DNA of 64,000 bases, taken from assembly GCF_026210795.1 (NCBI RefSeq), contig NC_089453.1:1118501-1182500 (forward strand), read 5' to 3'. The notes below the pieces were generated by a model, which saw only the letters and a list, made by a program, of their open reading frames with translations, ran no database searches and was not told where the DNA came from. The position numbers and the translations under genes are program-made. This document shows, piece by piece, positions 10,224-62,102 of this stretch; the stretch's first letter is position 1; each line of letters begins with the position of its first letter. The DNA comes from Rhizophagus irregularis. Taxonomy: Eukaryota; Glomeromycota; Glomeromycetes; Glomerales; Glomeraceae.

Positions 10224-10280
10224 TTATTGATTCCCAAATTTTCCTTTACTACTTACACCTTTTATCATAGTGTAGTAATG

Positions 10281-25659: not shown

Positions 25660-26255
25660 CACTGGTCAAAATCAAGGTTATCGGTTATATATCAGGTACC
25701 CGATATGTGTGCAATATATGTGATATACACTGGTAAAAAAATGATTTATCCTACACATATCTTACACATATTGGGTACTCAAAATGTAAAAAATCATACA
25801 CAAATAATACACATATCATACACATATCGGGTACTAATATATATATCATACATATATCAGGTACCTGATAGGTATACTATATATATAAATACCCGATATG
25901 TGTATGATATGTGTATTATTTGTGTATGATTTTCTACATTTTGAGTACCTGATATATGTAAGATATGTGTAGGATATGTGTAGGATAGACCATTTTTTTA
26001 CCAGTGATATGTGTATGATATTTAACAATACTACATATATCGGGTGCCCGATAAGTGTAGTAGAAATGTAGAAAATCGGTGACATATATTGTAAACATCA
26101 TGTACATATCTTATACATATCGGGTAGTCAAATATCAGTCACATATCATAGATTTATCAGATACCTGATATATTATAGTAAAATATCGGATAGATATCGT
26201 ACATTTATCAGATAGTGCCGATATACATGTCCAAAGTATACCTAATAGGCTTAAT
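25660..26255. repeat. Outer element left subterminal repeat zone
   Basis: Repeated words such as GGTACCCGATATGTG, ACACATATCGGGTA and TATCAGGTACC occur in both orientations from the left terminus inward. CACTA elements typically have such clustered subterminal motifs as transposase-binding sites; the binding itself is inference. It contains the small CACTGG element at 25728-26006. Confidence 0.8.
25728..26006. mobile_element. 279-bp CACTGG palindromic mini-element
   Basis: Ends CACTGGTAAAAAAATG and its exact complement, flanked by the 3-bp duplication ATA (25725-25727 and 26007-26009). Nearly the whole body is palindromic and made of the subterminal words of the large elements, so it looks like two fused element ends. 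It is a candidate substrate for the TNP2 transposase. Confidence 0.8.
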
Positions 26256-26720
26256 CACTGGTCAAAAAGAGATTTATCGGGTACCTGATATGTGTACGAT
26301 TCATATTTTATAATACTCCACATATTGGGTACATATCAGATAGTTTTCCAACCCGGTAACATATCATATACCTGATTTTTTTCCATAAACGTACACTTCC
26401 GAAAATATAAATTTCAGACTCCCGATATCCCTTCTAATAGTCACTAATATACCTGTCGGACCCCGATAGATATCAACAATTTATCTTATACATATCAAAT
26501 ACCCGATCCGATGTGTGCAATATTTATTTTTTCTTATATATTATACATATCATCGAATAGACTGTATATATATCGGCGCATTTTTTATACTTTAGCAACA
26601 TATCGAATACCCATAACATGCACATCTTAATTCTTAAAATATGTTTAAAAGTTATAAAGTACCAGGATTGATATATATCGGGTACTGATATGTGTACAAA
26701 AAACATATTAATTCTTTATT
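26256..26720. repeat. Inner element left subterminal repeat zone
   Basis: The same GATATGTG, TATCGGGTACC and CGATAT words as in the outer element start directly after the left terminus and fade by about 26720. Confidence 0.75.
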
Positions 26721-26805
26721 ATATCTTTGTATTTAATTTACTGTAATCCGCAACTCTCTTGATTTATAAATATATTATAATAATATATGCGTTGTTTGTT
26801 ATAGT

Positions 26806-27101
26806 AGGACCCCGGATATCTCCAAAACAGGTCATAAGTCACACTTTCGGCAGATTGGCCCATTTTTCAGGGCTCAAAAAATCGTTTTTTGTAAATATCT
26901 CAGCATCCAGTGGTCCAATTTTGATGAACATTTTTTTAAATTGTAGAGCTAAATGAGGGCTACAAAATAAAAAAAAGTTCATTAAAATTGAATTACTGGA
27001 TGCTGAGATATTTACAAAAAACGATTTTTTGAGTTTCAGCAAAAAGGGGTGTTTTTGGCCAAAAGTCCATTATGACCTTTATATTAGATATCCGGGGTCC
27101 T
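26806..27101. mobile_element. MITE family B, copy 1 (296 bp)
   Basis: Perfect 16-bp inverted ends AGGACCCCGGATATCT, flanked by the perfect 8-bp duplication GTTATAGT (26798-26805 and 27102-27109). The interior is itself an inverted repeat (AAAAAACGATTTTT, TACTGGATGCTGAGATAT). There is a second copy at 53839. Confidence 0.94.
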
Positions 27102-27529
27102 GTTATAGTAGTACAGAAAACGGAACTTTCATAAGCAGGATGCTCAAGTATTACGATCAGTTGAATTAAAAATGAATAAAACTCATATATTCTAAATTCT
27201 TATTGGTATTGCTATAAATCATAATCTAGCTATAAAAGTTAGTGTGTAATAAAAAAGCACATATCTAACTTACAAATTCTTCGTCTGATCGTTATTCTTG
27301 TTAGCAAGAACATGTCAGCAGTGTACTGCTATAAGAAAGTTAACACAATAACATAAATCGATCTCATTTTTGTCTCTGTCGATTAAAGAATATTGATCAG
27401 AATATTCCATGACTAGTCTGATTTAATTGGTAAATTCTTACGGCAATTTTTTCTATCGTTTATTTTTTTTTTTGAGCTGAATTTCAGTGGGTAAATAAAA
27501 TTATTTATTTTATTACAAAATGAGGGCTA

Positions 27530-27672
27530 ACATTTTATTCCTTTCCTTGTGAAAGGCTTCCTTTCGGCTAACATTTATTAATTCCTTTCATTGCTAAAGG
27601 CTAACATTTAATTCCTTTCATTACGAAAGGCTAACATTTAAAATTCTTTTCATTGCGTCACGAAAACTAATA
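27530..27672 (+). repeat. Hairpin minisatellite upstream of the RRM-A gene
   Basis: Four to five units of about 30 bp, GGCTAACATTTAATTCCTTT plus CATTACGAAA. Each can form a short stem (CTTT..AAAG). A diverged array of the same design precedes the paralogous gene near 43280. Confidence 0.75.
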
Positions 27673-27715
27673 TTTTATCTTTTTTTATATTAAATAAAAA
27701 TAGGAAAAATAAAGA

Positions 27716-28509
27716 ATCCTTGCTGCCATAGAAGTAATCTACATAAATTATCTCTATTTTTCGGATTGATGATTAAGGATATAAAATCAAAAGAGATTAA
27801 TGAGTGGATGAAAGCTACATTCAAATATGACTTTAATCATGTTAGAAAAGATCTTACCAGGGGTAGTAGTAAAATAATTAAAAAGTTAATCGATATTTTA
27901 ATAATAATTATTAATAAAATTTAATGAATTATTTTAGTTACGGATTTATTCATTTTAAGTCTGTCGAACAAACAAATAAATTCTTTAATTTCGTAAAGAA
28001 AAAAGAACTTATTGGGCCACATAGGAAATATATTAAGTTTAAATTATCAACGGCAAATCCAACAGAAATTAATATTGGTGACATAGTAAGTTATTTAATA
28101 TATATATAAGTTTATAAATTTTTTTCTAATATATATATATTTTTGTTTTAGGAATTTGTTGGTCCCTCGAAAAAAAATCAAATAGAATTAAAGATAAATT
28201 CATTTTTCAAACAATCAAAAGGAAATACAGCGTCAAATAAAAATAATGCACAAAATTCATCTATTGATAAAGGAAATATGGCGTCAAACAATGCACAAAA
28301 TCCATTTATTGGTAAGTTAAGTTTAAATAATAAATATACCGTATAGTAACTAAATAATTTTATAGAGATGGAATGAAAGATCTTAGAGTTAAGATTAAAA
28401 AAACAAAATCTAGAAATTGAATTATATAAACAGGAAGAAAAAATTAAAAAAATTAAAGAAAATCTTCAAAAAGTCGAAGATCTTAAAACTTTGATTCAAT
28501 TTAAGTAGT
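27716..28509 (+). pseudogene. RRM-A: RRM protein with a C-terminal coiled coil, broken
   Basis: Homologous to the N-terminal part of the gene at 43283. Coding similarity begins near PCC..., then KLSLFFG (RNP2-like strand), a helix (EINEWMKATFKYDFNHV), an intron at about 27863-27937, and YGFIHF (RNP1-like) with FFNFVKKKELIGP. A second intron near 28087-28151 leads to an Asn/Ser/Lys-rich linker. The last exon (after 28365) encodes a Lys/Glu heptad coiled coil ending at 28509, with an in-frame TGA at 28374-28376. The exact first exon and the first splice phase are uncertain. An RNA-binding role is inferred from the fold. Confidence 0.6.
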
Positions 28510-28852
28510 AAGTTTAAAATTTATAATAATTTAATATACGTTATTTCTCATCAAATGAAAACTCCATATAAATTGTATCAAAAGGTTCTTGTAATACAGC
28601 TTTATATATATATATAGCTTGAACATATAAACTTTTTGCATTAATATAATTAATTAATTGTAAATAAATATTTGATTTTTTTAATAAATTTTATTAATTT
28701 GGTTTTTTAAAAAAAATGGATTAATTTCAATCAAATATTTTAATTAAGAAATTATTAAGTATTCAAAAAAAATATAGCAGAATTTGATTCTGCCGACACC
28801 ACATAAATTTCAATTTTTTTTAGTTTAGTGCCCAACCCTATACACTAAAAAT

Positions 28853-30743
28853 TTAATTTTCGCCTAATAAAACTTGCAAATCTTTCTTCAACTGAGCTTC
28901 ATCAATATTCGAACTCTCATTAGATTGCTGCTCCTCAAAAGCTTGAAATATTAAGTCACGTTTTTCTTTTGAAGTTCAAACACGCGGTCCTCAATTGTAT
29001 TTTCAATAAAAATTCTAAAGACAGAAACTGGTCGAGTTTGACCAATTCTATAAATTCGATCTATAGCTTGATCCTCAATACTTGGATTCCACCAAGGATC
29101 CATAAGAAAACATTGATTAGCTGCGGTAAGATTCAATCCCAAAGACCTACATTTCAAACTAATTAAAAGAACCTTTATTTCTGGATCATTGTTGAAATTA
29201 TTTACTGCCTCCTCTCGCTGATTACGAAACATCTTGCCATCAAATCGAACAAATTTGACATTTGCGTCTTTAAAAGCAATTTCAATCAAATCAAGAAAAG
29301 ATGTCCATTGGCTGAAGACTACTGATTTATCATCATCATTATTTTGATTTAAAAATTCCACCAAAGCTTCAATTTTGGAACTTATCTTAAAATCATTTAA
29401 ATTTCCAATTTCTTCTTTGTTATCAATTCCATTTATTTGATTTATTTGTCTCTTACAAAGAAGTTGTGTGTGATTACAAATTTGCCTTAGTCTAAGAAGC
29501 ATTTCAAGGAATGTTACATAATTATTTTTTAAATCGCCATTTCTTGATTCTTTCCAACTTCTAAATTGTTCTTTTGTATCACTTTCCATTTTATCATAAA
29601 TCTTTTCTCGTCCGTCTTAAACTTAATTTTATGAGTATAGAAATTAATGGGAGGAAGACATACTATAGGATGTTCATTGAATTTCATGTCCTTTGTCCTA
29701 CGAAGACAAACGGTTTTCATTAAGTTTCTTAAGTCGTTAAGACGACTGTTATTATTGTTTTTAAATTTCATTGTTTTGTTGTTAAATATAGTATTCCATG
29801 TTTCAAAATTATCAAAAGGAGTGAATCTTAAAAATTTAATTAAAGAATACATATCATTTAACTCGTTCATAATTGGGGTTCCTGTGAGAATCCATCTTCT
29901 CTCAGCATTCAAATTACATGCAGCAATACTTTGTTTTGATGATTTTGTACAAATAATATGTCCTTCATCTAAGATAACTCGAAGCCATTTAATAGCGAGT
30001 AATCCACTCCTTTCTTTTATATCTGATTGTGCAAGAATAGCATATGTAGTAATTATTATATCGTGATCTTTAAGGAATTCTGGATCATTATTTCGATTAA
30101 TACCATGAAAAACGTAATAAGAAAGAGACCCTTTCTTAACATGTATGTTGATTTGGTCAACCCAATTGTCAAGCACACTTAAAGGAGTAACAATCAGAGT
30201 AGTTTTAGAATATGTGGAATCTAAATTGATTGCAGGTTTGGAAGCTATCAAAGCAATCATTTGTATCGTCTTGCCAAGACCCATATCATTAGCGAGTATT
30301 CCACCTCTGTTAAGATTAGGGTGTGCTATTGTTGCAAATCTTGCTATTGTATTATAATAGCGTGTTTTTTTCGATTGATCCTCCTTTTGAATCCAGAATT
30401 GAACTTCTTCATCGATAGTTGGCTCTTTAGGGTGTTCATTTGATAACATCTAGCCAAGGCCTTGTTTCTGATATGGAAGTAATTTCGTAATTAATGTTTC
30501 TGATTGTGGTGCTTCTAGAAGATTTACTAGAAATTCAGCTTCTGATTGTGGTGCCAAATCCAATTTTTTTGTACTTCTTTTAAAATCTTTGGAAATTTTA
30601 AATTTTGGTAATCCAACAACTGCACTGCTCTTATTTTTTTTATAAAATTTTTGAAGAGTATTGTTATCTTCATTGTTGTTGACTCGTTTAATTCTAAATT
30701 TTGGTAGTCCTCCTGTATTATTGTTATTATTTTTGGTAGACAT
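28853..30743 (-). pseudogene. SNF2-family DNA-dependent ATPase (RAD5/HLTF-like), three lesions
   Basis: Start ATG at 30743. The helicase motifs are all visible: NDMGLGKTIQ (I), TTLIVTPLSVLDNW (Ia), LDEGHI (II), LTGTPIMN (III), SVVFSQWTSFLD (IV), VRFDGKMFRNQRE, LGLNLTAANQCFLMDPWWNP (V), and IDRIYRIGQTRPV (VI). DEGH, rather than DEAH, is usual for the RAD5/RAD16/HLTF branch. The RING finger normally found before motif IV in that branch is absent. Lesions: an in-frame TAG (30450-30452) where QKQGLxWML expects Trp, and single-base deletions near 29580 and 28965, after which the frame runs to a stop at 28853. Such proteins remodel chromatin or act in DNA-damage tolerance. Here it is cargo of the inner transposon. 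Confidence 0.9.
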
Positions 30744-30865
30744 TGAGATTTTTATTTGAATAATTTTTATTTTGTTTGAGAATATTTATAAAAAAAAAAT
30801 TATTTCTAATTAGTATATTATTAAATGGGAAAAGAAACCAAAGTTTCTAATTATTAATAAAAAAA

Positions 30866-31255
30866 TCTACTTACGTAGTGGTAAAACTGTAGAAAAAAAT
30901 GTACTTACGTGAATATATTAAAACTGTGGAAAAAAATGTACTTACGTGAATATATTAAAACTGTGGAAAAAAATGTACTTACGTGAGTATATTAAAACTG
31001 TAGAAAAAAATGTACTTACGTAAGTATATTAAACCTGTGGAAAAAAATGTACTTACGCGAGTATATTAAACCTGTGGAAAAAAATGTACTTACGTGAGTA
31101 TATTAAAACTGTGGAAAAAAATGTACTTACGTGAGTATATTAAAACTGTGGAAAAAAATGTACTTACGTGAGTATATTAAAACTGTAGAAAAAAATGTAC
31201 TTACGTGAATATATTAAAACTGTGGAAAAAAATGTACTTACGTGAGTCTCATACA
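30866..31255 (+). repeat. 37-bp minisatellite upstream of the SNF2 gene
   Basis: ACTTACGTGAGTATATTAAA followed by CTGTGGAAAAAAATGT recurs about ten times with a 37-bp period. Each unit holds TTACGTGA or TTACGTAA. The array starts about 120 bp upstream of the SNF2 ATG, in its presumed promoter. Confidence 0.9.
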
Positions 31256-31365
31256 CTGTGATAAAAAATATGGATATTTTTCTCCACAAGTAAAAAATAA
31301 TTTATACAGTTTATTTCGTTACAGGCATTTAAATAGTAAATATTCATATGACTAGGAAAAAAAAG

Positions 31366-31488
31366 GCATTTAAACAATTTGCATGTATAAATAAATGTCG
31401 ATCCTATTCTATATGCGCTAACACGTGATCGTTTTACAATTGTGTTACATTAGAAAGTGTACGCAAATTGTTAATTAAATTTGAATGC
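31366..31488. repeat. Degenerate GCATTTAAAC inverted-repeat element
   Basis: Starts GCATTTAAACAATTTGC and ends near TTGAATGC. The interior matches, in opposite orientation, the element at 36684-36817 (AATGTCGATCCTATTCTAT). The two copies flank the 32-36-kb segment as an inverted pair. Confidence 0.7.
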
Positions 31489-32129
31489 AAAAAAAGGTTA
31501 TAAATAAACCTTTATCTTGTTTATCTGATGTATCACAAATTTATTTAATCTGATGTAGCACGAAATTTCCGGATATCTTTGACATAACATATATAGTCCT
31601 TCGCTTCGCTTCGGACAATAAAATCTGTACCACAATAATTCGTTAAATCAAAATTCGTTATAACGCGAGCTGACTGTATTATAAACGTAATAATTATTAT
31701 ATATATGGTGGTAGTTTCATCCTTCTCATCTGTCATCCGGAAAATCTGGCAAATTACGGATACGGATATATACTGTACTTTATTAAGCATTTATTTATTA
31801 TTATTAAAAGTGTTAATAGTTTTAACTCACTATTTACGATCGAATCGTACGTATATAAATTTTTAAACCGTTAGTTACATTTTAAAATCCTATTTAATAA
31901 ATAAAAAAAGTTGCTATAATTTATTAAGAAAAATACTGTGAGGTACATCAAACTCACGGCTATTTTATAAACTCTTTAGTAGTAAATAAAATTTATAACA
32001 TGTGTTTTGTGAATAGTAAATAACGATTTATTTATTATATTGTATTATATTATTATTTATAGAACTAAAAGATGGAAAATAAAAAATATACACATTTTGT
32101 TATAATAATAATGAAAGATATTTATTTCC
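31489..32129. other. AT-rich intergenic region
   Basis: Lies downstream of the RG-rich gene. A short 81-codon open frame (31545-31790, minus) has no recognisable feature. Nothing else is supported. Confidence 0.4.
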
Positions 32130-34090
32130 TTAGACTACTTTTTCCTTTCCTTTATCACTACTACTACCAGCTTTATTCCCTCTTCCTCTTCCCGTTCCCG
32201 TTCCCGTTCCTCTTCCCATTCTCGTTCCTCGTCCTCTTTCCCTTCCTCGTCCTCTTTCCCTTCCTAGTCCCCGTCTCCTTCTACTTCCACTTCCAATATT
32301 ATTATTACTACTACTGCTGCTGCTACTACTGTCGCTACTACTACTGTCGCTACTACTACTGTCATCAATAACTTCCTTCTCCTCCTCCTGCTGCTTTTGG
32401 ATATCCTTATACTCCTGATGAGTATAATAGATTCCTTTTTCGATTATTGTAAACCACCGTTCCGCACTTTCTTTACTTGGTAGTCGTTCAAATAAATTAG
32501 GTGTGAGAACAGTTATCAAATCGAAAATCGCAAAACTTTTATTGCATGTATTCCACAACCTATTTATTCTTTCGGCTGAAGTTTTGTAACTTCTCCATTG
32601 TCTTTGCGTTAGTTTTTCTTCAGCTTTTTTTAGAAACTTTTCTAATTCAGTTTCTTCTTCTGTTTCTTTCATCTCCCCCTCAAGTTTTTTCTTAGCTTTT
32701 AATGCATTTGTTTCGCCAAATTTTTTTGGCTCTGAAGCGACTGTTTCTAATATCATCTTATATAATTCGTAAAAATACGCGTATCTTCTTGCATTTCGCC
32801 GTCTTGTCAATTCGGTTATCTCATTTTCTGATTTGATTTTGTCTAAGACTACAAGCATGTCTTCTATCAACGAAGACATATTGCCAACGTCTATTTTGTC
32901 AGGAATGGAATTAATTCTTAAATTAAGATTATTATCATCATCAATATTTCTCACAAGAGGAATAGCTCCATTTATTTTGGAACCATCAAATTCCATTCCT
33001 TTATTTAAATAATTGTCAAAGTATTCTTAGAGGTTTTGTACATATTTTTTACTGTTATAATTGGGCTGCATTATTGGGGGGTTATAAGGTAGACGATCTT
33101 GGACCGTCTTTAAATGATGTATTAACCATGCAACGGCTAATGTATCTTCCTTAAGATTTTCACCAGTTATCTTTTCTTTATATAAAAGTTCGATCCCTAT
33201 TGTTGTATTATTGTTGCTATTGTCTGAATCAGCAGGTAATCGCTTAAGTATATAGGGATTGTTCTCAAATCTCTCCTGTTCCATTTCTATAAAATTTTTC
33301 TCGGACATGTAAAATGTCGGTTTTATGTTAAGAGATCCTGACGGAAGAACGGCAGTTAATTTTTGCTTATCTATATCTAAGATAAGTTGTTTACAATTTC
33401 CGCCATTCATGCTCTTTAGAGCAACTAATCCGTCTTTCAAAGCATTAGCGGGAATCGTTTCTAAGAACTGTTGGACTTCGTAATGATCTTCTGAAAGAAT
33501 TTTGATTGTGTCTGATGAATAAAAAAAATTAATAATAAATTTATATAATGTGAGATAGTTCTCGACTTTTAAAATAATAATATATATAATAATAGTATAT
33601 ACTTTTTACCTTTTTCTTTCGGGTTGTCTGCCGGGGTTAATTTGGCCTTTTTTGCTTCTTTGCTTTTAGTGGACTCTTCGTCCTTTCTTTTCCTCGGTGA
33701 TATAATTTCAGACGGACCTGCCGTCGTCGTAGTTTGTACATCAGACGGACCTGCCATCGTAGTTTGTAGTACATCAGTCGGACCTGCTGTCGTCGTAGTT
33801 TGTACATCAGACAGACCTGCCATCGTAGTTTGTAGTACATCAGTCGGACCTGCCGTTGTTGTAGTTTGTACATCTGACGGACCTGCTATCGTAATATTTT
33901 CTAAGGTTGGAGAATATTTTGGAGAATATTCCAATGGAATTATATATGGGAAATATCTATGTTTGGTTCTTTTCCGAGAGACCTTAGAACTAAACCTTTG
34001 ATCTAATTCAGAAAATGAACCACTTTCACTTTCTGAATTGACCTCATTTTCTGAATTGGATGATTTATCTTCTGGCGAAAGTTGAGACAT
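32130..34090 (-). pseudogene. Two-exon gene with repeat-rich N-terminus and RG-rich tail, one in-frame stop
   Basis: ATG at 34090 (MSQLSPEDKS). Exon 1 (33610-34090) is acidic/Ser-rich, then has a tandem peptide repeat (AGPTDVLQTTMAGPSDVQTT) and a basic patch (PRKRKDEESTKSKEAKKAK). A GTAAAA..CAG intron (33512-33609) joins in frame to exon 2 (32130-33511). Exon 2 has a TAA at 33027-33029 between KKYVQNL and EYFDNYLNKG, a charged helical region, a poly-Asp/Ser run and an RG-rich tail (RRRRGLGRERGRGRERGRG). RG tails usually bind nucleic acid, and the basic patch suggests nuclear location. I do not recognise the family. It is cargo of the inner transposon. Confidence 0.65.
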
Positions 34091-34205
34091 TTTAAAAAAA
34101 TTCAAATTTCTTGATTATGTAAAATTGTTGTTTTATTACGATGACTTTTCTGATTTTTCTGAAAAGGAATTTTATCTCCTTTTATATATATTTTTTTAAT
34201 TGTAT

Positions 34206-35048
34206 TATTATATATATTATATATAATATAATAAATACCGTTCGATTAAATAATATGTGCACTCATCTAGGAAAATTAGACTAAACCATGTAATCCTAGA
34301 GTAGAGTAATAATATAATTACGCAAGTAATTAAAGTAACAAAGATATTTTTAAATAATGTAAATTAATTGGAAAATTTTTTTAATGCACCACATAATAAT
34401 AAAATTTGACACATTTAATAATTTAAATTATTAATTGAATGTATATAGTATGTATAATAAATATATAAGACTCCTCTGAATAATCGCGCTTCAAGGTACA
34501 GACAGCAATGGGAGAAATTCATTACAATATCAATTAATTATTTAGTCTGAAAAATATAAATATTTCAATGATTCTGATGTAATAATAAATAATATAAATA
34601 TCAAAATTGTAATTGGTTAATTTCATTTATTATATTATATTATATATAATGTAATAAATACCGTTCAATTAAATAATATGTACATTCATCGAGGAAAATT
34701 AGCCTAAACCATGTAATCCTAGAGTAGAGTAATAATATAATTGCGCAAGTAATTAAAATAATGAAGATATTTTTAAATAATGTAAATTAATTGAAAATTT
34801 TTTTTATGCACCACATAATAATAAAATTTGACACATTTAATAATTTAAATTATTAATTAAGTGTATATAGTATGTATAATAAATATATAAGACGCCTCTG
34901 AATAATCGTGCTTCAAGGTACAGACAGCAATGGAAGAAATTCATTATAATATCAATTAATTATTTAATCTGAAAAATAAAAATATTTCAATGATTCTGAT
35001 GTAATAATAAATAATATAAATATCAAAATTGTAATTGGTTAATTTCAT
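34206..35048 (+). repeat. Tandem duplication of a 422-bp AT-rich segment
   Basis: 34206-34627 and 34628-35048 align nearly base for base (for example ATGTAATCCTAGAGTAGAGT and AGGTACAGACAGCAATGG in each). The copies differ by scattered substitutions. No ORF. Confidence 0.88.
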
Positions 35049-36180
35049 TCAGTTTACACAATCAATAATAATAATAGATTAATTTAAATTATATTACAAT
35101 TGTTACATGCACCAAAAATTTAAATTTTCTTGCTAGATAAGAACTTAATTTAATAATAATAATCATGATATCCTTTCTTTATTTCCTGTGTAATTCAAAT
35201 AAATTAATCGGAAAATTAAAATATTAGATTTTTGTACTATTTATAAAGTGTAGTGTTTCACCCATATTTAAAAAAGAAAATTACGACAATAAATGATCAG
35301 CAAGTGCATTTGTTGTAATTTCCTTTTTTGAATATGTCGGACGTGCACACAAGTATATAATAATTTAAAGAGCACACTTTTTTTTGTGTAATAGTAATAA
35401 ATTGATCAACATACACGGGATCAGTGTTGGGAGCTGATAGTCACATGATTTGTACTATACCACTTCGAATTAATTGCGGCATGAGTTAAAATTTTATTTA
35501 TGATATCATAATACGATTTTTTATAATGTACATATAAACGGAAATCATTTTCCCAATAAATTATCCGAAATCTTTAAAATTTAATAACTTACGCTTTATT
35601 AGCATTCAAGTAACGCCGTAAAGTTGAATAGATACATGATATCTTCAAGAAACATAAAATACCTTGTTTTTTTCAAAACTTACGAAAAAAAAGTTTTATT
35701 ATGGTTAGAAAATTTAATTTATTAATTTCGAAGTATTAATGACTTTTTTTAAAAAAAAAAAGATATTTCGTGAAAGAGACAGATATTTGGAGTAATTTCG
35801 CAAAGTTTGAAATGAAAATGTTAAGAAAGATCCAGAGTTATTAAAGAATGAAAATATAGCTTCGTTAATAATAAATTTATTATAAAATAGTTTAATACGA
35901 AAAAATCTTCAATGGTAAATTTTATTATAAGACTATACATAGTTTTGATTTAATTAGTTGACAGTGCACCCCAAGTAGAAGCTTTTTATAAATTACCTAC
36001 CATTTACGAGGTAAACGGTTCGTTAAGTCCGGAGCATAAGTGTAACTAAATGAACCACTAATTATATGGCATCGACTCAACTCTTGAATATATATATATA
36101 GTCTTCCGGAGTAACAGTTCTTTGAGTAATTTTAAAAATTCATATAAATTTTCATATAAAGAAAACAATGAAAGCCAGTT
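35049..36180. other. AT-rich intergenic region
   Basis: About 1.1 kb downstream of the TNP2 gene with no ORF of note, no terminal repeat and no structured repeat that I can support. Confidence 0.45.
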
Positions 36181-36189
36181 TACAAAAAT

Positions 36190-36640
36190 AGTCACAGTCG
36201 CAAAATCTATTGGGTAGCATCACGAGAATATTTTTTAAAGGATGGCATTCGAATGCCTTCCTTACGGGTAATTAATTAATAAAAAAAGGTCACAGCCACG
36301 AAATCTATTGAAATCTATTGGATGGCATCACGAGAAAATTTTTTAAAGGATGGCATTCGAATGCCTTCCTTACGGGTAATTAATTAATAAAAAAAGGTCA
36401 CGGCCTCGAAATCTATTGAAATCTATTGGATGGCATCACGAGAAAATTTTTTAAAGGATGGCATTCGAATGCCTTCCTTACGGGTAATTAATTAATAAAA
36501 AAAGGTCACAGCCACGAAATCTATTGAAATCTATTGGATGGCATCACGAGAAAATTTTTTAAAGGATGGCATTCAAATGCCTTCCTTACGGTAATTAATT
36601 AATAAAAAAAAAGGTCACAGCCACGAAATCCATTGGATAG
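36190..36640 (+). repeat. 108-bp minisatellite with internal palindrome
   Basis: GGTCACAGCC recurs at 36288, 36396, 36504 and 36613, with one partial unit on each side. Each unit contains the palindrome GGCATTCGAATGCC, broken by one base in the last full unit. Confidence 0.9.
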
Positions 36641-36683
36641 AATTTGATATACACCTATCAAAGATCAACATTTTCGTGTAATA

Positions 36684-36817
36684 GCATTTAAACAATTTGC
36701 ATACACTTTCAAATGTAACACAATTGTAAAGCGATCACGTATTTGTGCATATAGAATAGGATCGACATTTATTTATACATGTGCACGTGATAAAGTGTAT
36801 GCAAATTGTTTAAATGC
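36684..36817. mobile_element. 134-bp MITE with 26-bp perfect inverted ends
   Basis: GCATTTAAACAATTTGCATA continues into CACTTT and returns as its exact complement at the right end. It lies just downstream of the TNP2 stop codon (36845). No clear target duplication was found. Confidence 0.8.
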
Positions 36818-36844
36818 ATTTCGAATAGATAATAGATTATTCTT

Positions 36845-43206: not shown

Positions 43207-43282
43207 TGAGGTATTTTTTTTTCTAATGAAACCTTTTTATCATTCCCTATTTAAATTAAATAGCAAATAAAAAATATCCCTG

Positions 43283-44482: not shown

Positions 44483-44669
44483 TTTTTTATATTTTTGTTT
44501 ATTTTTAATAAAAATTTTATTATAATTATTTAAACCCAAATTATTTAATCCAAATTATTTATTTATTATAATTTATTATATAAATTTAAAAATTAATAAT
44601 ATCGCGATTTATACATAAAATCTATAAATCTGTAAAGTAATATTATTTGTATTGGTTTGCTATATTGCT

Positions 44670-46060: not shown

Positions 46061-46069
46061 TATTTATTC

Positions 46070-47930: not shown

Positions 47931-47939
47931 AAATGATGA

Positions 47940-51608: not shown

Positions 51609-52365
51609 TCTCTCATCGGAATGGCCGTTCCGAGTTTTGTGGTTTCCGTATCAAGCTACTTTTAGATATGCTTCCAACGCTTACAACTCTTCAGAGACGA
51701 AAACCTCATCTTTATAATCCGGATTGGCTTTGTCCTCAATGTAACTCTTCTCCTGAGACTTTAGACCACTTGTGGACTTGTCCTTACATTTTACCAGAAT
51801 TTAGCCCTTTACAAACTTTTAAAACATTACTATTGGCTCTTCGGACTACTTATCTTGATAATTTCCTTTCCGCATCATCTTTAATACCTTTACCGGACTC
51901 TTTTGCTGCTGAATTTACGGCTCTTAATTGTTGGGATTGTGACCCTCCTTCAATTTCCTGCCTGCGACTCACAAGAGGACTTATACCGATATCTTTGACT
52001 GAATTTCTTGGAAATTATTTTTCTTCACCTACCATATGGTCTATCTTAGATACACCTTTGCACGACTTTCATTTTGACCTTTATGTTCAAATCTGGTTGT
52101 GCCGATCCATTTTCTTTCATCATTGGGAATTAGCTCAAAGCATTACAAAAAAAATGAAATCGTCAGCTCTTGGGCCTTCTTTTATTCTTCAACCTTCCTC
52201 TAACATTCCTCTTGACTCTTCGACACCTTCCTTGGCGACAGCTTTCTTGGATTCCTGGGTTTCTTGGGTTTCCTCTTCTATAATCCGTGGGAGATCTTGG
52301 ATTTCGCATTTGGATTTTTGGCGCCGCTCAACAGTTCAGCCTCTACTTAGGATTTCTTTTTGGTA
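51609..52365 (+). pseudogene. LINE3 ORF2 C-terminal fragment
   Basis: Open to the TAA at 52363-52365. Contains MLPTLTTLQRRKPHLY and the C-x2-C-x8-H-x4-C element (CPQCNSSPETLDHLWTC). The sequence is closer to LINE1 than to LINE2 (SCLRLTRGLIPISLTEFLG). There is no catalytic domain, as only the last 230 or so codons are present. Confidence 0.88.
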
Positions 52366-52631
52366 ACGGATTGGATCTTAGGACATGCTGGATAGTTGAC
52401 TCACACTGGCCTTCGGGTAAAGATGGGGTATGCGTTTCTGTAATAGTTTAGTTTTTCTTTACTTAATTTTATTTTGTTTAGATTTCTTTACTTGTATGAA
52501 TCGTGAAGCTAGTTCTTTTTATTTTTTATGTTTATTTTCTATATTTGATATTTGTAATATTGTTCGATTTGTTTATTGTACTTTTCGTTTAAATTTAATA
52601 ATAAAAGATAAAGTCATAAGACTGTTTGCTC
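51609..52631 (+). mobile_element. LINE3: 5'-truncated LINE insertion
   Basis: 1023 bp with a 16-bp duplication ATAATCACCAAATATG (51593-51608 and 52632-52647). It starts inside the RNase H-distal coding region and keeps the full 3' UTR, including GTCATAAGACTGTTTGC. Its site and orientation within X are the same as those of LINE1 within X'. Confidence 0.93.
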
Positions 52632-53838
52632 ATAATCACCAAATATGGACTGTCCCAAATGTGTGACTATAAAGAGAGTTGACTGTATTCTTAAGAACGA
52701 TTCGCATAAGTTCAGGCTCTATTTGTCGATTACTATTAGGGTATGATCCTGGATAATAATAATAGATTTATTTGTATTCTTTATTTTTAAAAAATATTAA
52801 CATAACAACAAACATCTTACCAATATATCCATTAAGTCTCTCATATGGAAAAAGCCAAAAACTATATATAGAACCATAGTCACGGCAACAGTCGGAAATA
52901 TGAAGTGCAAGATGTATGTTGCTTGTTATAAATTCTGGCCTATATGTTCTTTCTATAAGGTGAGCCATGTTCTTCAACCTCTCTTGCGCTTCTCTCAGAT
53001 CATCTTCTGTAATAAATCTTGCTACTAAAAGATTACATGCTCGAACAAAATGTCCTAAGATCTTTCTATCATTATTATCTAGCATGTTCTATAGTATAGG
53101 CGTGGAATAAATCATAATAAAGGTTTTCCATTGATCAGCAGTTAAATTTGAAAAACCTTCATTTCCAATTGCAATCTTTGGGGGGATTCTACCGATATCA
53201 GAAGGTAATTCAATATAATCCATTCTCTTTTGTGCAATTCGAAGTTGCTCCATGCTTAACTTATTTTGATTAATGAAAATGGATTTGATTATCCATTTTG
53301 CTATACCTAGAAAAAGACAATGCATTGGATCCACTATGGCAAATCTTATGGGATCCATATATGGTAAGTGAAGCAACTCGCTCCACCTTACACCATGTTC
53401 TTTAAAATGTGTATCTCTGGAGGACTTCGAATTGCATTGCAACCATTCATGAGCATATTGCCTATGTAATAAAGGATTTATGGGATTTGTTACCTATTTA
53501 TCATATTCTTGCATTCCTCCATAATGAGTTTTTTTATAAACTTCACTATAAGTACTACGCTTTTCACACCTATGATATTTCATTACTGCTGAGCCATGCC
53601 CAAATAACTTTCATGTTGCTGGTGTATCTGATGATCCAATAATTAATGCAACTTTTATGTCTAAACCTTCAGTATATTGGTAGATCTTTGGAACTCTCCA
53701 GCCCTTCCAGAGTTCTAAAAGCTCATCCACAATAGGGGCTAAATAATAGTTAATACGTTCCAACCCTACTTCTTTCGGTCCTGGCAAAAAACCTAAGTAA
53801 ATAATATTTTCGGGTTTATTCCTTTCTGTTCTCAGAAG

Positions 53839-54133
53839 AGGACCCCGGATATCTCCAAAACAGGTCATAAGTCACACTTTCGGCAGATTGGCCCATTTTT
53901 CAGGTCCAAAAAATCGTTTTTTGTAAATATCTCGGCATCCAGTGGTCCAATTTTGATGAACTATTTTTTAAATTGTAGAGCTAAATGAGGGCTACAAAAT
54001 AAAAAAAAGTTCATTAAAATTGAATTACTGGATGCTGAGATATTTACAAAAAACGATTTTTTGAGTTTCAGCAAAAAGGGGTGTTTTTGGCCAAAAGTCC
54101 ATTATGACCTTTATATTAGATATCCGGGGTCCT
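53839..54133. mobile_element. MITE family B, copy 2 (295 bp)
   Basis: Perfect inverted ends AGGACCCCGGATATCT with 8-bp duplication CTCAGAAG / CTCGGAAG (53831-53838 and 54134-54141; one mismatch). Inserted in the TNP2 exon at the NLPRTERNKPEN motif. Nearly identical to the copy at 26806. Confidence 0.93.
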
Positions 54134-54173
54134 CTCGGAAGATTACAGATAGACGCGTAAATAGCACCAGCAC

Positions 54174-55335
54174 AGGACCCTGAAGAATACATATAATACT
54201 GGGATCCAATTTTGTATAAACTTACTATGTAATTTCTTAATAAGTCATATGTTTGAAATTGTATAACCAAATAGCAGTTACGCAAAAAGTCAGATTTTTA
54301 TTTGTATAACAATAATGATTTTTACAATAAGTAAGAATTTCATTTTGTATAACGGATATTAGAATTTTTTTTTATATACGTTTAAAATTTTTTAAAGTTT
54401 TTTTTTATTTTTTGTTTAAGAAATTTTTAAGATATTTTTTAATAAAGAGTTTTTTTATTTGTTTTAAAAAACACTTGAAATATTTTTTAATAGAAATTGT
54501 TTTTTGTTTAAGAAGTTTTTAAGGGTTCGTTTAAAGACATTTTTTTAATAAAAATGAAGAAATTTTTTTAAAATTCATTTACAAAATTAAAAAAAAATAC
54601 ATTTTATTATATATCTCAGCATCCAGTGATCATAGAGAAATGAAACACAGCTTATTAGATTCGTCTCAATACGATGAGTCGAATGGTGGTAGTTTCATAT
54701 TTCTAGGCGCGATAGATGCCGAGTTATGTGATAAAATGTAAAAATGCACAGTAGACGAAAATACAAAGTGCCGATGTGTGGTATAGCTCATCATCTATCA
54801 CACCTAGAAACACGAAACTACTACCATTCGATTCGTCTTGTCAAGACGAATCCAACGAGCTGTGTTTCATCTTTTTACGATCACTGGGTGGTGAGATATA
54901 TAACAAAATGTATTTTCTTTTATTTTGTAGTATACACCCAAATTTTTGCATAAAACTTACTATATTATACATATTGGGCATCAATATCTATCGGGTATTT
55001 AAAATTTTAACATGCAATTTTGTTTAAAAATTTTATTTAAGTTATTTTTTAATAATTTTTTTTAATAATTTTTTTTAAAAAAATTTTTTAAGTATTTGTT
55101 AGAATTTTTAAATAGTTTTTAATAATATTTATTAAAATTTTCAATAAAATTTATTTGAAATTTTTCTTTAGAAATTTTTTTTTTATATAAACTCAGATTT
55201 ATAATTGTATAATTTATAATAAAATTTGAACTTATGTGATGATTTTGTATAAAGCTTCTAATAAAATTAGGTGTATAAAGTTATATTAAAATTTTGGGTC
55301 TGGATCTGAGTTGTATATGTATTCTTCGGGGTCCT
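54174..55335. mobile_element. 1162-bp TIR element of the AGGACCC group
   Basis: Left end AGGACCCTGAAGAATACATA, right end TATGTATTCTTCGGGGTCCT, with 8-bp duplication ACCAGCAC / ACCAGCAT (54166-54173 and 55336-55343). It interrupts TNP2 between HNAG and AIYASICN. The centre holds two inverted modules with GATTCGTCTC/GACGAATC and GCATCCAGTGATC, like the X units. No ORF. Confidence 0.9.
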
Positions 55336-56689
55336 ACCAGCATTGTGTTGAGTATAGGTGAAAGGTTGAAACCAATCAAGATTAAAGAGAAGGCCCAGGT
55401 GTGTTGTCGCAGTTTCTGGTGTAAAGAAGGTATCACCATTAAATGGGAAAGTTTTCCATACCTTACCATCATAAATATCTGAATAGGTATTAACCCCTCC
55501 TCTTTGAATTCCTGATAATTCCAGCATATCTTCAAACCCAGGTTGTTGGTATAACATACTTAATTGCTGACGAATACTTGGTTTAGGATAAATCATACGA
55601 GGTACAGCAATTATTTCACCCTTTCTTTTTTTAAGAATAGAAAGTGGATTGTTGCATTTATTATGACGACTAGGTACTGGATTATCTGGGAATTCTTCAT
55701 GTAGGCAATTTGCAATAGCAGCTTTTTCTTCTTCTTTGTATTCAACAATATTTCTAACATTATACAATTTATGACAATTGTTGCATACAGCTAACTGCAT
55801 TTTTGGTTGAAAGATATTTAACATTTTTTTTGCAAGATATAAGGATGCTGGAAAATTTTTAAATTGTGATTTATCTAAACGAGTAAGTACAATATGTAAG
55901 AATTTTATTAATACTTCAAGTGCTATATCTGGAAGTCTAAATCTTTGTTGAAATTTGAATACCCATAGAATAATTTCGGTTTCTATAGAATCATTTAAAC
56001 TTTCCATAACGTCAAATACTTCATCATTACCAATTTCAGGAGATGAAAAAAATTCTTCTATATCCTCCTCCTCCTCCTCATCATCTCCATCATCATCATC
56101 ATCATCTTCTTCATTATAATCGCCTTCATCTTCACCACCATTATTTTCAGCACCATTATTCTCATCGCCATCATCCTCATCACCGTCATCCTCATCACCG
56201 TCATCCTCATTATCATCATTTTCTTCTTCTTCATTGTAATATATATATTCATCGTTATCCTTATTTTCATCAGATGCTGGAATATGAAAATAAGAAGGAT
56301 TTGGCAATAATGGTGATGATGAAAATAATGTATGTATGTTTTCATTATTATTTGGTTGGAATGAATCAGTATCTTCATTGAAAGGATTAAAGCCACTATT
56401 ATGTTGGGAAGAATCAAGATTAAAACTTGATGCCCTTTTTCACTTTTTTGTAAGATTTACATCTTGAATAATGATTAATCTTTTTTGTTTTCTTGCTGTA
56501 ATAGTATCTTCCTGATTTTTCCTAGTATCCTCTGAGTTCCACAAACTTTCATCATTTGTATGATTTTCTTGAGTGCGAAAATCAACCTCTGCGCCGTCAC
56601 AACGAATACAATGGCATGGATACAAATACCTTTTTCTGGGTTTTATTAAATCGGCCATTTTTAGTTTTTTTGATTTTATTGAATTGGTC

Positions 56690-56895
56690 GTTTTAGATTT
56701 TATTAAATCAGATACAGAGGTAGAGATTTCAATTTTAGTTTTTTTGGATTTTATTAAATCAGACACGGAGGCAGAAGTTTCAATTTTACTTTTCCTGGGT
56801 TTTACTAAATCAGAAACAGAGGTAGAGGTTTCAATTTTACTTTTTTTGTGTTTTACTAAATCAGACACAGAGTTAAAGGTTTCAATTTTACTTTT
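56690..56895 (-). repeat. 60-bp coding minisatellite in the TNP2 N-terminus
   Basis: Four tandem units encode about 20 residues each (KSKIET-STSVSDLVKPR pattern). The inner TNP2 copy has no such array; its first 15 residues correspond to about one unit. Confidence 0.85.
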
Positions 56896-56907
56896 TTTAT
56901 TATTCAT

Positions 56908-57364
56908 TTTGTATTTTATGAAATAGCTAAGAAAGTTAAGGTTACAATTACTTAAATAAAGTACGCTTATTAAAAAATTTTCAAAAAAATTATCAATTCA
57001 ATTTTTCCAAAATCAGGTTCTTCAATCACTTTTTTAGAATCAGGAACAAGTTCGCGTTCAATTCTTCAATTTCGTGTTCAACCTTTCTTTTAGGATCAGA
57101 TACACATTCAATTCTTCCTTAAGATTAAGATTAGTTTCGCGTTTAATTCCTATTTCAAAATCAGTTTCGCGTTTTTGGTAAGATAAAATAAACGTTTAAT
57201 TATTCTTTTAGATCAGATTCGCATGCAGTTCTTCAAAATCAAGTTCATATATCTCGCATCACTCATTCGCGTAGTCAAATCTCAACAACTTCAAAATCTA
57301 TAAATTTGCTCACAAATCTTTTTTCACAAATTCCTCTTCTCAATCAAAGCAATCAAAGTAGGCA
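56908..57364. promoter_or_regulatory. Bidirectional intergenic region of the outer TNP2/partner pair (457 bp)
   Basis: Separates two divergent ATGs by 457 bp, against 455 bp in the inner element. It contains TTC-rich repeats (TCAATTCTTC, GTTTCGCG) whose role is unknown. Confidence 0.5.
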
Positions 57365-57779
57365 ATGATGGATAGTGATTAACACTGGTCGGAAAAGTCC
57401 ATTTTGGCAAAATTTTAAATTGCCGAATGTTGAACGAAATTTGGTCTGACCTTAGCCGATCAGTACCAAAAAAATCGGCAACTAATTTTATAAACGATTT
57501 GCACCGTAACGCCTGCTACTTATCAACAAATCGATCAGTAAAAATTGGCAACAAATCGGTAAAATCAAATTGGCGATTATTAATAAACCTAATAATTTAT
57601 TAACGATTTTTGTACATTTAACTGATTACTGATTTTAATTTTATAATAATTTATTAATTAAATTTTATTAATTCGTTTTATTAAAAATTACATATTAAAT
57701 TAATATATAGCTATCTATCATCTATATACACCATCCACCATCCACCATCCACCCATCATCCTCACATAACCTGATAAAA

Positions 57780-58630
57780 ATCCGTAGAAAACCTACAAAA
57801 AAAAGGAGAAAATGGTTAGTAACCTATTTTTTAAATAAAAAAATTGAAGTTTCAAAAGAAACTTACCCGATCTGATAAAATCCGAAGGGGAAACCTACAA
57901 AAAAAAGTAAAGAAACGGTAAGTTCATTTCTTTAATAATAATAAAAACTGAAGTTTCAAAAAATTTGAAACTTACACAATCCAATAAAGTCTGAAGGGGA
58001 AATCTACAAAAAAAAAAGAAGAAACAATTAGTTTAATGTTTCTTCGATAAAAAAAAATAAAGTTTCGAAATATTGAAACTTACCCCCAAATCGATAATGG
58101 AAACCTACAAAAAAAAAAGAAACGGTTAGTTCGTTTCTTTAATAAAAACTTGAAGTTTCGAAAAATTCGAAACTTACCCACCCATCCAATAAAATCCGAA
58201 GGAGGAAATCTATAAAAAAAAAGAAGAAACAATTAGTTTAATGTTTCTTCGATAAAAAAAATCACAAAGTTTCAAAATATATTCGAAACTTACCCCCTTA
58301 CCCCAATTCGTTAATGGAAACCTACAAAAAAAAAATAAAGAAAACGGTTAGTCCGTTTCTTTAATAATAATAAAAAATAAAGTTTCAAAACACACATCGA
58401 AACTTACACGTCTATTTCTCAATAATAGTATGAAGAATAACCTACAAAAAAAAATAAAGAAACGGTTAGCAACCCGATTCTTTTATAAAAAAAAATCTCA
58501 AAAAGTTTCGAAATATTTCGAAACTTACCTGATCCATCAGCCTGAAGTGAAAGCCTACAAAAAGAAGAAAGAAACGATTAGTAAATCGTTTCTTTTAAAG
58601 TTTCGAAATTAACCCAACTTCGAAACTTAC
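57780..58630 (+). repeat. Two-hairpin tandem array, about 8 units of 100-115 bp
   Basis: Each unit has CCTACAAAAAAAA, then a stem of the form GAAACG-GTTAGTT-CGTTTC, then AAGTTTCGAAA..TTCGAAACTTAC. The loop TTAGT is nearly constant while the stem bases change together between units (GAAACAAT..TGTTTC, GAAACGAT..ATCGTTTC). A further solitary stem of this form is near 59609. Confidence 0.8.
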
Positions 58631-58650
58631 CAGTCATCTCTTATTTTGAT

Positions 58651-59505
58651 GCATCCTTAATCTTTTCTTTCACCAAGCGCGCTCGTGCTAAACAGCTCAA
58701 CCGAAATCGTCATAGAGTTTTCACGCTGGATTCTGTGTCCGCTTCTCAATGGGATGATTTTTCCACTCTATTAGACTCCTTTTGTGATGTTTCTCTTGAT
58801 GATTTTAAGTCTTGGCATCTGAATTGAAAATGTGAATTTCTTCATTCTCAGATTGTTAAGGCTGCGATCAAGATCCTCCCTAATAGTCATGTCTCAAATC
58901 AATTCACTCCCAAGGTCCCAAAGGACTTGGATTTGCTTACTCACATTTATCGCTTTGTTACAAAAGTTACTGCCACCATACGGTCTCTTACTCGACGACC
59001 TGATGATTTTTCCTTTGTGCACGAATCCAAATGGTCACATTATCTTCCAAGACTTGCCGCTATCCTTGCTCGATACAAGAGTGTTTTTGTGGACGCTCCT
59101 CCTTTACCGAATTTTCTAGCTTTTTGCACCTCAGATTCCTTTGCCTCTTTATTTTCTTCTCTTTCTCACATTTCTAAAACGTTGCGTGGTTTGCATGTTT
59201 TGAAAGAATGTGAATTTCAAGAAATATCCATTACTGCACATATTGATAGATGTAATGAGAACTTTGAGTCAGATATCTCTTCCTTTATCAACTCATCCCT
59301 TTCTAGAACCTGGAGATGTATTGTTTTAGATCGTGTATTTATTGATCACCCTACTTGACTGCATTTGGTCACTGATCCGAAAGACATTATGTCTGAAGCT
59401 GTTAACCATTTTCAAAATTATGTTCCTATTAACCTGCCTTTCACCAGTGAACCTTCTTCTTTACCTGAGCATTGGGCTAATGCTTATGCCCTTTGGATTC
59501 GGTAG
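58651..59505 (+). pseudogene. Captured LINE ORF2 slice (between endonuclease and RT)
   Basis: Reads TKRARAKQLNRNRHRVF, SASQWDDF, VDAPPLP, SLSRTWRCIVLDRVFI, DPKDIMSEAVNHFQNYV and EHWANAYALW, which align with the linker of LINE2 ORF2 (KSRLKQTKEMRTIF .. SIEKRLIVLDRVLVV .. PARWQQAY). TGA near 58826 and TGA near 59357 break it. It starts after the endonuclease and stops before the RT. It is a different LINE family from LINE1-3. Confidence 0.7.
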
Positions 59506-59806
59506 ATGCTTCAATCTATGATTCTTTATTGGACCATCAACCAATTCATGCCCTAAACCCTAATATCTATTATACTTTGAGGGCGTCTTGAACCTACAAA
59601 AAAAAGAATGAAAACGTTAGTAAACGTTTCGTTAAATAAAATTTTTAAAAAAATCTAACTCTCCTACCGAAGTACCCATGCGTCTAAAAGCCGAATAACT
59701 AAAAAAAAAAAAATTTGAAATTAGTTTATTAAGGCGAAAACGAGGGAAATAAAAAAAATTAAAAACTTACCGAAATACCGTATCCAAAGAGCCGAGGCGT
59801 CACCTA

Positions 59807-60050
59807 TAAGGTTGCTTGCCGAAACCTAGGGATTTAGGCAAGATGGCGTTTCGCTGAAAAGCGAAATTCTGCCGAAACTATATTAAAGTTATATTAAAAA
59901 ACTGGCGAAACTTTGGAGAAAGGCGAAACTGCCGAAACTTATTATAAATGCCGAAACTGCCAAAACTCTGCCGAAACTATAATAAATCTATAGTAAAATT
60001 TTGACGAAACTAATCGTAGGATTTTGAAGAGGTTTAGACAAGCAACCTTA
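59807..60050 (-). mobile_element. MITE family A, copy 3 (244 bp)
   Basis: Opposite orientation to the other copies, with the perfect 8-bp duplication GTCACCTA (59799-59806 and 60051-60058). Confidence 0.93.
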
Positions 60051-61574
60051 GTCACCTAAAAAGAAGGAAGAGGGAATGGACGAAAGAAAGGGGAAAGGGA
60101 AAGACGAAAAAGTGAGAGGAAAGGGAGACGAAAGAGTGAGTAGAAAGGGGAAGACGAAAGGGTGATGAAGGAGTGTGTGGAAAAGTAAAGTGAGTGGAAA
60201 GGGGGGAGACGAAAGTGTGAGAAAAAAAAGTTTAAATAAGGTTAATATATAGTAGTATCGCGTAATGCACGTGATACATAATTACAAAATATCGACCAAA
60301 AAGTTATTGGTCGATTTTTTTTCATTGATTTTACCGATTTTTGCCATTGGTCAAAAAATGTGACGAATCACATGACCAATCGGCAAAAATTATGCCGAAA
60401 GCTCTTAACGGTCAAAAGTTTTGATTTCGACCAGTGTAAGAATCTACCTCCTCATCTTCCTTATTATCTTTTACCTATTCATCTTCGTCCTTGTCAGACA
60501 ATGCTATTCATTTGAATCAAAATATGTACTATCGAACAATTAAAGTAAGTATTTTTTTATTATCTGTCATTGAATTTTCCCAAATATTTACGTTTATTTA
60601 TTATTTATAGAAAGAAGTCTTTATCTGGGTAGATTCTGAATTTAAGGATATATATGAGATTGATAGTGATCGTACGTGGCTTGAGCAAAAAGAAAATATA
60701 ATTACAAAATTACTTCCACCGCTTTATAAGTTAGTCAACAAAAAGTATAATGTTTCGAATAGTGACATCTTAAAGATGTTACATGGACGTTGGCATTCAC
60801 GCCATCGTATAAGCAATATAAAGAAGCAAGGAGACGACAAAATGAAAATGGATAGGAGAAGATTAAAGAAGAATTCAAGAACTATGGACGTTAGTAACCA
60901 TTTTATTAATATGAAGTGGGAATTTAGTTAATTTTATTTAATTTTATAATTATTTATTATTATAGAAAAAAAAAAAGAGCTCAAGCGGCAAACTATTTAA
61001 TAGAAAATAATGATAAATACATTCGTAGATACCCGAAGAAGAAGCTTGTACGAATTTTTAAGGAATCTGGTTATCATTCAGAGGAGTGGGAGGAAACCGA
61101 TTCTGATGAAGAAAATGATATAATTGGTAAAGAATCTGCTGTTAAAGAAAAGACAATATCAATTCATATATATAAAACATGGTGGCGTTTTTCTGCAGTA
61201 TGTACTATATATTTATAATTATTTTTTTTATTTTATTTATTTTATTTATTAATAGTAATTATTTATTAAAGCTTCAGCATTTATTACATGATTGGATTGA
61301 TCCGACCGTTGAAAAACTGAGGAAAAAACCTCGAATTCTAAAAATTAAAAGAGTTCAAAGATGTAAAACAACAACAAGTATGCCTCCAGTGGATACACCA
61401 AATTGGTGTCTGACTGATGAGGTTCTTAAAAGATTTAATCGTTCAACAAATGAAATTCCAACATATGATTATAATACTGATCAAGATGAAGAAATTGACG
61501 AATATCATAACGATGAATATGAAAATAAAAAAATAAAAAATAAAAAAAACAAAAAAAGCAAAAAAAGGGGGTAA

Positions 61575-61898
61575 AAAAACATAAAAATAATTAAATATTA
61601 TGATTAAATACTTTTATTAGGTTATTCTTATCAATTGGCATTTATACAAATTGATTAAAATAAAGTTGTATGTAAGATTAATTTGAACATTCAATCCAAT
61701 TAATTTTAAAATAAAATATGTATATTTTTAATATTTTCGTCAGTTATTCGTGATATCAGAAAAAATAAAAAAAAATTGAAAATAAGGGGTTTTATATGAA
61801 TAAATGATTATCTTTAATATTAAAATACTTTTTTTAGTAATAATTTTAATATACCTCTTTGAATTATATAATACAAATACAATAAATAAATATTTTGC
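61575..61898. other. Outer element 3' spacer
   Basis: AT-rich and without features between the partner gene stop and the subterminal repeats. Confidence 0.4.
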
Positions 61899-62102
61899 AT
61901 ATCGGTACCCGATATGTGTAAGATTGATTCAGTGTTACATATCAGTGACTAATCGTTTAGATATCGGGAATCCAATTTTTAGGCATATTTGATATGTTAC
62001 ATATCGGGTACCCAATATGTAATAAATGTCTGATATGTATCTGATTAGTTACTGATATATAGGTACCCAATATGTATCCGATAGCATCAATTTTGACCAG
62101 TG
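61899..62102. repeat. Outer element right subterminal repeat zone
   Basis: CGGTACCCGATATGTG, ATCGGGTACCCAATATGT and related words lead to the right terminus ATTTTGACCAGTG. Confidence 0.78.

Follow-up and report, generated by a model that had tools for sequence, protein, structure and literature searches.

Our analysis of a 64,000-nucleotide window of the Rhizophagus irregularis genome (NC_089453.1, positions 1,118,501 to 1,182,500; G000:C25:1118501-1182500) reveals that the block at 25660-62102 is almost certainly a stack of cut-and-paste insertions. In particular, a CACTG-ended transposon, element B, interrupts a long interspersed nuclear element (LINE); a second CACTG-ended transposon, element A, interrupts B; and four smaller inserts, M, F, E, and D, also lie in B (Table 1). 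The block is ordinary CACTA nesting, combined with a CACTA lineage that carries an SNF2 gene. A first-pass annotation, made from the letters of the window, had taken the whole 36.4 kb for one element that moved as a unit and was unusually large for a CACTA element. Movement as a unit is not supported, as A stands alone on contig C23 and copies of B occur without A. The unusual size is likewise not borne out: 36.4 kb is a sum, because A is nested in B and much of the remainder consists of the four smaller inserts. The false giant is thereby removed, and anyone judging size or cargo by the outer ends alone would be misled. The genome searched comprised 146.7 Mb in 32 contigs; coordinates with a contig name refer to it, and all others are window positions.

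The outer boundaries of B are exact to the base, as the annotation had them. CACTGGTCAAAAT occupies 25660-25672 and its reverse complement 62090-62102, a perfect 13-bp match with the first mismatch at base 14, and the flanks read ...CTTA and TTAG..., giving the reported TTA duplication; a 3-bp flank match is expected by chance in the window at about 2.3%, as calculated by summing the squared frequencies of 3-mers. Genome-wide, there are 257 occurrences of the 13-mer (124 forward, 133 reverse), versus 6 of the same pattern read backwards. Pairing of ends was counted on C1-C9, where the end-motif listing is complete: the 97 ends there gave 25 convergent, 3 divergent, and 9 same-strand neighbours within 40 kb, the convergent pairs spanning 2.2 to 21.0 kb (median 7.6 kb). 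Some same-strand CACTGGTCAAAAT ends lie only 248-297 bases apart, start to start (C2:998636/998884, C8:580468/580765, and C9:4593027/4593324), as if element ends had been duplicated or one element had entered another's end.

The LINE interrupted by B rejoins cleanly. Read on the minus strand with one TTA kept, its reading frame runs ...PKYDNSFT-KKNISRHYT...CRSCEDQLEDFMHLFMC across the joint with no stop, bearing out the annotated split, and the C-x2-C-x8-H-x3-C spacing of CRSCEDQLEDFMHLFMC agrees with that of CPQCNSSPETLDHLWTC in the open reading frame (ORF) at 51581-52363, a comparison the annotation had also drawn. LINE copies continuous across NSFT-KKNIS, which the annotation had named as the empty site to look for, are common: with the 354-nt joined flanks as query (40 of 135 candidates scored), 38 of the 41 matches listed span the joint at 75-92% identity, 37 of them reaching 100 nt or more to either side. 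Two of the other three are the window's own halves, and one ends short of the joint. In the best LINE copy (C6), the flanks join with a 3-nt overlap.

Element A has its own ends, its own target duplication, and its own existence elsewhere. The end-motif scan gave a second end pair, at 26256 (plus strand, directly after AAT) and at 45545 (minus strand, directly before AAT), with inverted ends that agree at 12 of 13 positions. A sister of A at C23:572565-595224 begins and ends with the same bases, is flanked by TTA on both sides, and has no B around it; it matches A at 96-98% identity over long blocks and at 94-95% in some short repetitive ones. These two, in the window and on C23, are the lineage-A copies known here to have both ends. 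Conversely, B runs uninterrupted through the site of A in 14 of 55 matches listed (40 of 199 candidates scored; the remaining matches are one-sided), with 7 at full length and 96-99% identity and 2 at 71%. One whole B copy, C2:6032206-6044459 (12,254 bp, CTA on both flanks), carries AAT only once at the site of A. The annotation had proposed a search for further copies with the same ends and the same gene set: the C23 sister answers to it for A, and the B copies, which are without A, do not. The interior was thus not inherited as one unit common to the copies, given B copies without A and A without B.

Alternative pairings of the four ends were rejected on their flanks, which disagree for 25660 with 45545 (TTA/AAT) and for 26256 with 62102 (AAT/TTA). 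Also rejected was C8:2428379-2433088 as a second copy of A in B: its 4.1-kb insert is bounded by CAGTCAGGCG ends, is flanked by a TTAA duplication, and has no match to the window among those listed. This B copy is broken almost at the site of A, the TTAA target of the CAGTCAGGCG insert overlapping A's AAT, and the coincidence is due either to chance or to a small hot spot for insertion. Nesting is seen at least once more in the genome, at C5:1470909-1479173, where an 8.3-kb CACTG element flanked by AAT on both sides lies inside a lineage-A copy.

The remaining length of the block is accounted for by the smaller inserts. The C2 copy of B is without A, M, F, E, and D at the window's sites, and carries other inserts that are missing from the window, including an F-like one elsewhere in the element. 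In a search with the B-D junction (40 of 108 candidates scored), one of the 40 matches listed, the window itself, spans the junction; the others hold either the B half (6) or the D half (33), and D is of a different family from B. After removal of A, M, F, E, and D, the pieces of B total 10,317 bp, and pieces plus inserts sum to 36,443 bp. The 10,317 bp are close to the 10,416 bp between the paired ends at C9:3187020-3197435, one of the seven full-length B copies.

Table 1. Features of the nested insertions, by position in the window
Feature	Position	Strand	Description	Basis
Outer CACTG element B, as found	25660..62102	.	36,443 bp; TTA-flanked	End motif and flank reading; empty LINE site; B relative at C2
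TTA target duplication, left of B	25657..25659	.		Flank reading
TTA target duplication, right of B	62103..62105	.		Flank reading
Split LINE, upstream part	62103..64000	-	Itself with 245-bp repeat at about 62381-62622	
Split LINE, downstream part	24772..25659	-	With CX2CX8HX3C motif	
Inner CACTG element A	26256..45545	.	19,290 bp; ends CACTGGTCAAAAA / CACTGGTCAAAAT	End-motif scan; C23 sister; B copies without A
AAT target duplication, left of A	26253..26255	.		Single AAT in C2 copy
AAT target duplication, right of A	45546..45548	.		Flank reading; C2 comparison
SNF2 (RAD5/HLTF-like) gene of A	28954..30785	-	Broken: one in-frame stop, one frame change	Pfam; PDB
Second cargo gene of A, RG-rich tail	32133..34114	-	Interrupted in A	ORFs; relatives in C23, C16, C5
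TNP2-type transposase of A	36848..40177	-	In-frame stops	Middle ORF Transposase_21 3.4e-10
Second core gene of A	40872..42076	+	Three exon-like ORFs, divergent from transposase	Genome matches; B counterpart
TNP2-type transposase of B	49997..56997	-	Split by inserts F and E	C2 counterpart
Second core gene of B	60611..61571	+		ORFs; comparison with A
Insert M, inverted-repeat miniature element (MITE)	25728..26006	.	279 bp; CACTGGTAAAAAA ends; ATA/ATA flanks	Not in C2 copy
Insert F	50687..52684	.	About 2.0 kb with LINE pieces	Not in C2 copy at corresponding site
Insert E	53840..55335	.	About 1.5 kb; GGACCCCG...CGGGGTCC ends	Not in C2 copy
Insert D	57383..60436	.	3,054 bp; CACTGGTC ends; TAA/TAA flanks (CAA in C2)	Family of its own

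Both A and B are CACTA/EnSpm elements, in line with the annotated CACTG-ended, TNP2-type element in a LINE with a 3-bp duplication. Transposase_21 is matched at 39.9 bits by the middle ORF of the A transposase and at 42.1 bits by the C2 copy of B (Pfam cutoff 28.6). The C2 counterpart is a 797-amino-acid open frame (7.3e-11); neither of the two outer ORFs of the A transposase, nor the window B fragments 55270-56439 and 56443-56997 tried alone, gave a Pfam match. Besides CACTG ends and Transposase_21, the elements have a second ORF, divergent from the transposase in both A and B, subterminal repeats at both ends, and 3-bp duplications (TTA for B, AAT for A, TTA for the C23 sister, CTA for the C2 copy, as well as TAA for D and AAT for the nested C5 element). 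Specifically, GGTACC sites cluster toward the ends, with 4 of 4 within 200 bp of an end in the C2 copy and 3 of 4 within 110 bp in the C23 copy, and would fit as putative subterminal repeats like those of CACTA/EnSpm elements.

A genome search with the A transposase (86 of 766 candidates scored) listed 90 matches, many of which have long open frames, so that open-frame relatives of the transposase exist. A second transposase group makes up 44 of these 90 matches, including C12:5088043; its members are 45-51% identical to the A transposase, have open frames of 518-866 amino acids, and in many cases lack a stop in the matched part. The ratio of nonsynonymous to synonymous substitution rates (dN/dS; Nei-Gojobori) for the transposase is about 0.22 between A and B, 0.47 between A and C16, 0.76 between A and C23, and 0.96 between the window B and C2, with dS of 0.016 for A-C23 and 0.021 for window B-C2. 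The first ORF of the second core gene of A has 82 genome matches, several of them lying at about 3 kb from a match to the transposase, and the A and B versions of this gene are 57% identical. Its exons gave no Pfam match and no useful match in the PDB; a fold model predicts helices only, at low confidence (mean predicted local distance difference test score 69).

The cargo of the block is confined to A. Its SNF2 gene matches SNF2-rel_dom (1.2e-59) and Helicase_C (2.7e-22) in Pfam and, best in the PDB, RAD5 (6l8n, 2e-36), and has relatives in 29 listed matches from 32 candidates. The gene belongs to A: the left 309 bp of A occur at five loci (the window, C23, C19, C5, and a broken copy at C2:119-121 kb), and SNF2 adjoins the A-type left end at the first four; at C2:119-121 kb, no SNF2 was found among the matches listed. 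The order SNF2, RG-rich gene, transposase, second gene is common to A, C23, and C16, although no element ends were seen in the C16 stretch examined, which runs to the contig end. At C19, 20 kb yielded the left end and a part of SNF2, and nothing more. The C5 copy continues past the stretch examined and has no transposase or second-gene match among those listed. A 37-bp tandem array (10.6 copies, 30859-31247) lies directly upstream of the SNF2 gene of A.

Of the SNF2 genes that look ordinary, C32:1353671-1356667 is nearest; it is a 999-amino-acid open frame with HIRAN, SNF2, RING, and Helicase_C domains, and no CACTG end motif was found in the surrounding 10 kb. Element copies align to its SNF2 and Helicase_C parts only; none of the five aligns to residues 1-352 (HIRAN) or 750-808 (RING), and the four-domain HLTF/RAD5 architecture is therefore not that of the element copies. 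Because all five are without the HIRAN and RING parts, a single shared origin is suggested. Further SNF2 sequence consists of 270 bp in C18:36001-46000, with no ends, and of fragments at C4:1975502 and C32:2662826; C25:1182501-1187500 contains repeats only.

The second cargo gene, with an RG-rich tail, has good relatives in C23, C16, and C5, a 38-residue piece in C1, and otherwise distant ones. No Pfam family scored above threshold (best PF10500, 17.8 bits versus a cutoff of 40), and the PDB search gave no useful match. An RG-rich tail by itself could bind RNA. The annotated cargo of chromatin and RNA-binding genes divides: one chromatin-type gene, SNF2, is confirmed, and the RNA-binding label, with no family match behind it, is unsupported rather than refuted. 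Repeated open frames of 226-397 amino acids that are distantly similar to the RG-rich protein occur at C1:2101337, C14:4920891, C32:76251, C1:1536551, C4:4934629, and C21:1289768, at 27% identity over query residues 32-217 and with near-equal scores.

In the history that we propose, B (about 10.3 kb minus its inserts) entered the LINE, duplicating TTA; A (19.3 kb, of the same superfamily) entered B near its left end, duplicating AAT; and M, F, E, and D are further insertions in B. B must precede A inside B, as the anatomy requires that order. The chemistry would be that of CACTA/EnSpm elements, in which excision follows binding of the transposase to the ends and a 3-bp duplication results (PMC8978399, PMC12730594). 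By this analogy, a TNP2-type DDE transposase would recognise the CACTG ends together with GGTACC-containing subterminal repeats, excise the element, and join it to a 3-bp staggered target. Since the transposase and SNF2 frames in 25660-62102 are broken, these copies could now be mobile only with proteins from intact relatives.

An alternative is that one 36.4-kb CACTG element moved into the LINE with its cargo in a single event, or that a composite did so with A already in B. The intact outer ends, the TTA duplication, and the clean LINE joint would be expected of such an event, yet an ancestral single element is excluded by A, with its own ends and duplication and alone at C23, and by B without A at many loci. 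For a composite jump, no second A-in-B junction was found (A's left end lies at five loci, the other four without B among the matches listed), nor a second D-in-B junction, the window's own match being the one that spans it among the 40 listed. We regard this alternative, in either form, as improbable. That the structure is an assembly artefact is far less credible still, to the point of being negligible, as each insertion point is marked by an exact short duplication and is found unoccupied in independent copies, which would be unexpected from a misjoin. Several points nevertheless weigh against stepwise stacking as drawn here. The outer ends are intact, so that B and A could in principle be excised together, and the two may have reached the LINE already joined; the order of LINE insertion and A insertion cannot be read from age, because A and B are about equally young (dS 0.016 and 0.021). 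In addition, the ends of E and F were set from a single comparison copy (C2), and against that copy E does not form a clean insertion, since C2 has about 23 bases of its own, not in the window, at the site.

The ancestor of lineage A would have acquired the RAD5/HLTF-like SNF2 gene and the RG-rich gene, and copies still have them. We lean toward the view that both are passive passengers, caught once by that ancestor, now decaying, and with no role in the element. SNF2 is broken in the window and has stops in C16, C5, and C19, and plant CACTA elements capture host fragments (PMC8978399). Nei-Gojobori dN/dS for SNF2, with bootstrap intervals and neutral simulations that assume kappa 2.5 and A+T bias, is 0.54-0.81 between element copies, versus 0.22-0.29 between element copies and the C32 relative; the C19-C23 and A-C23 intervals include 1, and 27 of 300 neutral simulations were as low as the C5-C23 value of 0.61 (0.42-0.93). 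Passive carriage sits less well with the gene order kept in A, C23, and C16, with the presence in C23 of all six helicase motifs looked at, and with C16-C23, for which a ratio of 0.61 (95% interval 0.46-0.82) was as low in only 5 of 300 neutral simulations. The copies looked at are mostly decaying, and this weak constraint is slight evidence that SNF2 was used for part of the life of the lineage; its protein may once have helped the element. It is conceivable, although we consider it doubtful, that lineage A is a four-gene CACTA element in which a RING-less RAD5/HLTF-type SNF2 ATPase is a working part, opening or protecting the element's own chromatin or aiding repair after excision. The host fungus, we presume, methylates its own transposons.

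Lineage A resembles CACTA/EnSpm (CMC) elements in its CACTG ends, 3-bp duplication, Transposase_21, second ORF, end-clustered subterminal repeats, and capture of host sequence, and differs in its SNF2 and RG-rich genes and in a second ORF with no Pfam match. It resembles RAD5/HLTF proteins in its best PDB match and C32 relative, and differs in the absent HIRAN and RING parts. A parallel is offered by fungal EnSpm elements that carry TET/JBP: they too have 3-bp duplications, their ends are CAC..GTG, and a role against silencing is proposed for their extra, chromatin-related gene (Kojima 2025, PMC12730594). There, the added gene encodes a dioxygenase rather than an SNF2 ATPase, and the elements are known from rusts, mushrooms, morels, and truffles. 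Fungal EnSpm elements with an added chromatin enzyme are thus already published. If true, SNF2 as a working part would parallel the TET/JBP-bearing elements, and the SNF2-bearing lineage A offers a way to test whether recruitment by fungal DNA transposons extends from TET/JBP enzymes to chromatin remodellers. Plavaka and CMC families, likewise of the CACTA/CMC class, are known in this arbuscular mycorrhizal fungus (PMC11075540, PMC8647823). Plavaka ends are TGT..ACA (with a 2-bp duplication) or CATCA..TGATG (PMC12730594), whereas A and B have CACTG..CAGTG. Neither of these main texts (PMC11075540, PMC8647823) uses the word "cargo", and SNF2, looked for in PMC8647823, is not in that main text. 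A limited literature search turned up no earlier SNF2-bearing CACTA element.

Other repeats occur in the window. A 245-bp repeat is present in four copies, 94-98% identical and in four contexts (18248-18491, 45193-45436, 59807-60050, and 62381-62622), and is a young short mobile repeat. A 190-bp tandem repeat has seven copies, 97% matching, at 21644-22974. Two LINEs in opposite orientation, at 2112-5033 and 8701-15664, are about 70% identical over 3.3 kb, and the LINE ORF at 8701-9759 has an RRM domain.

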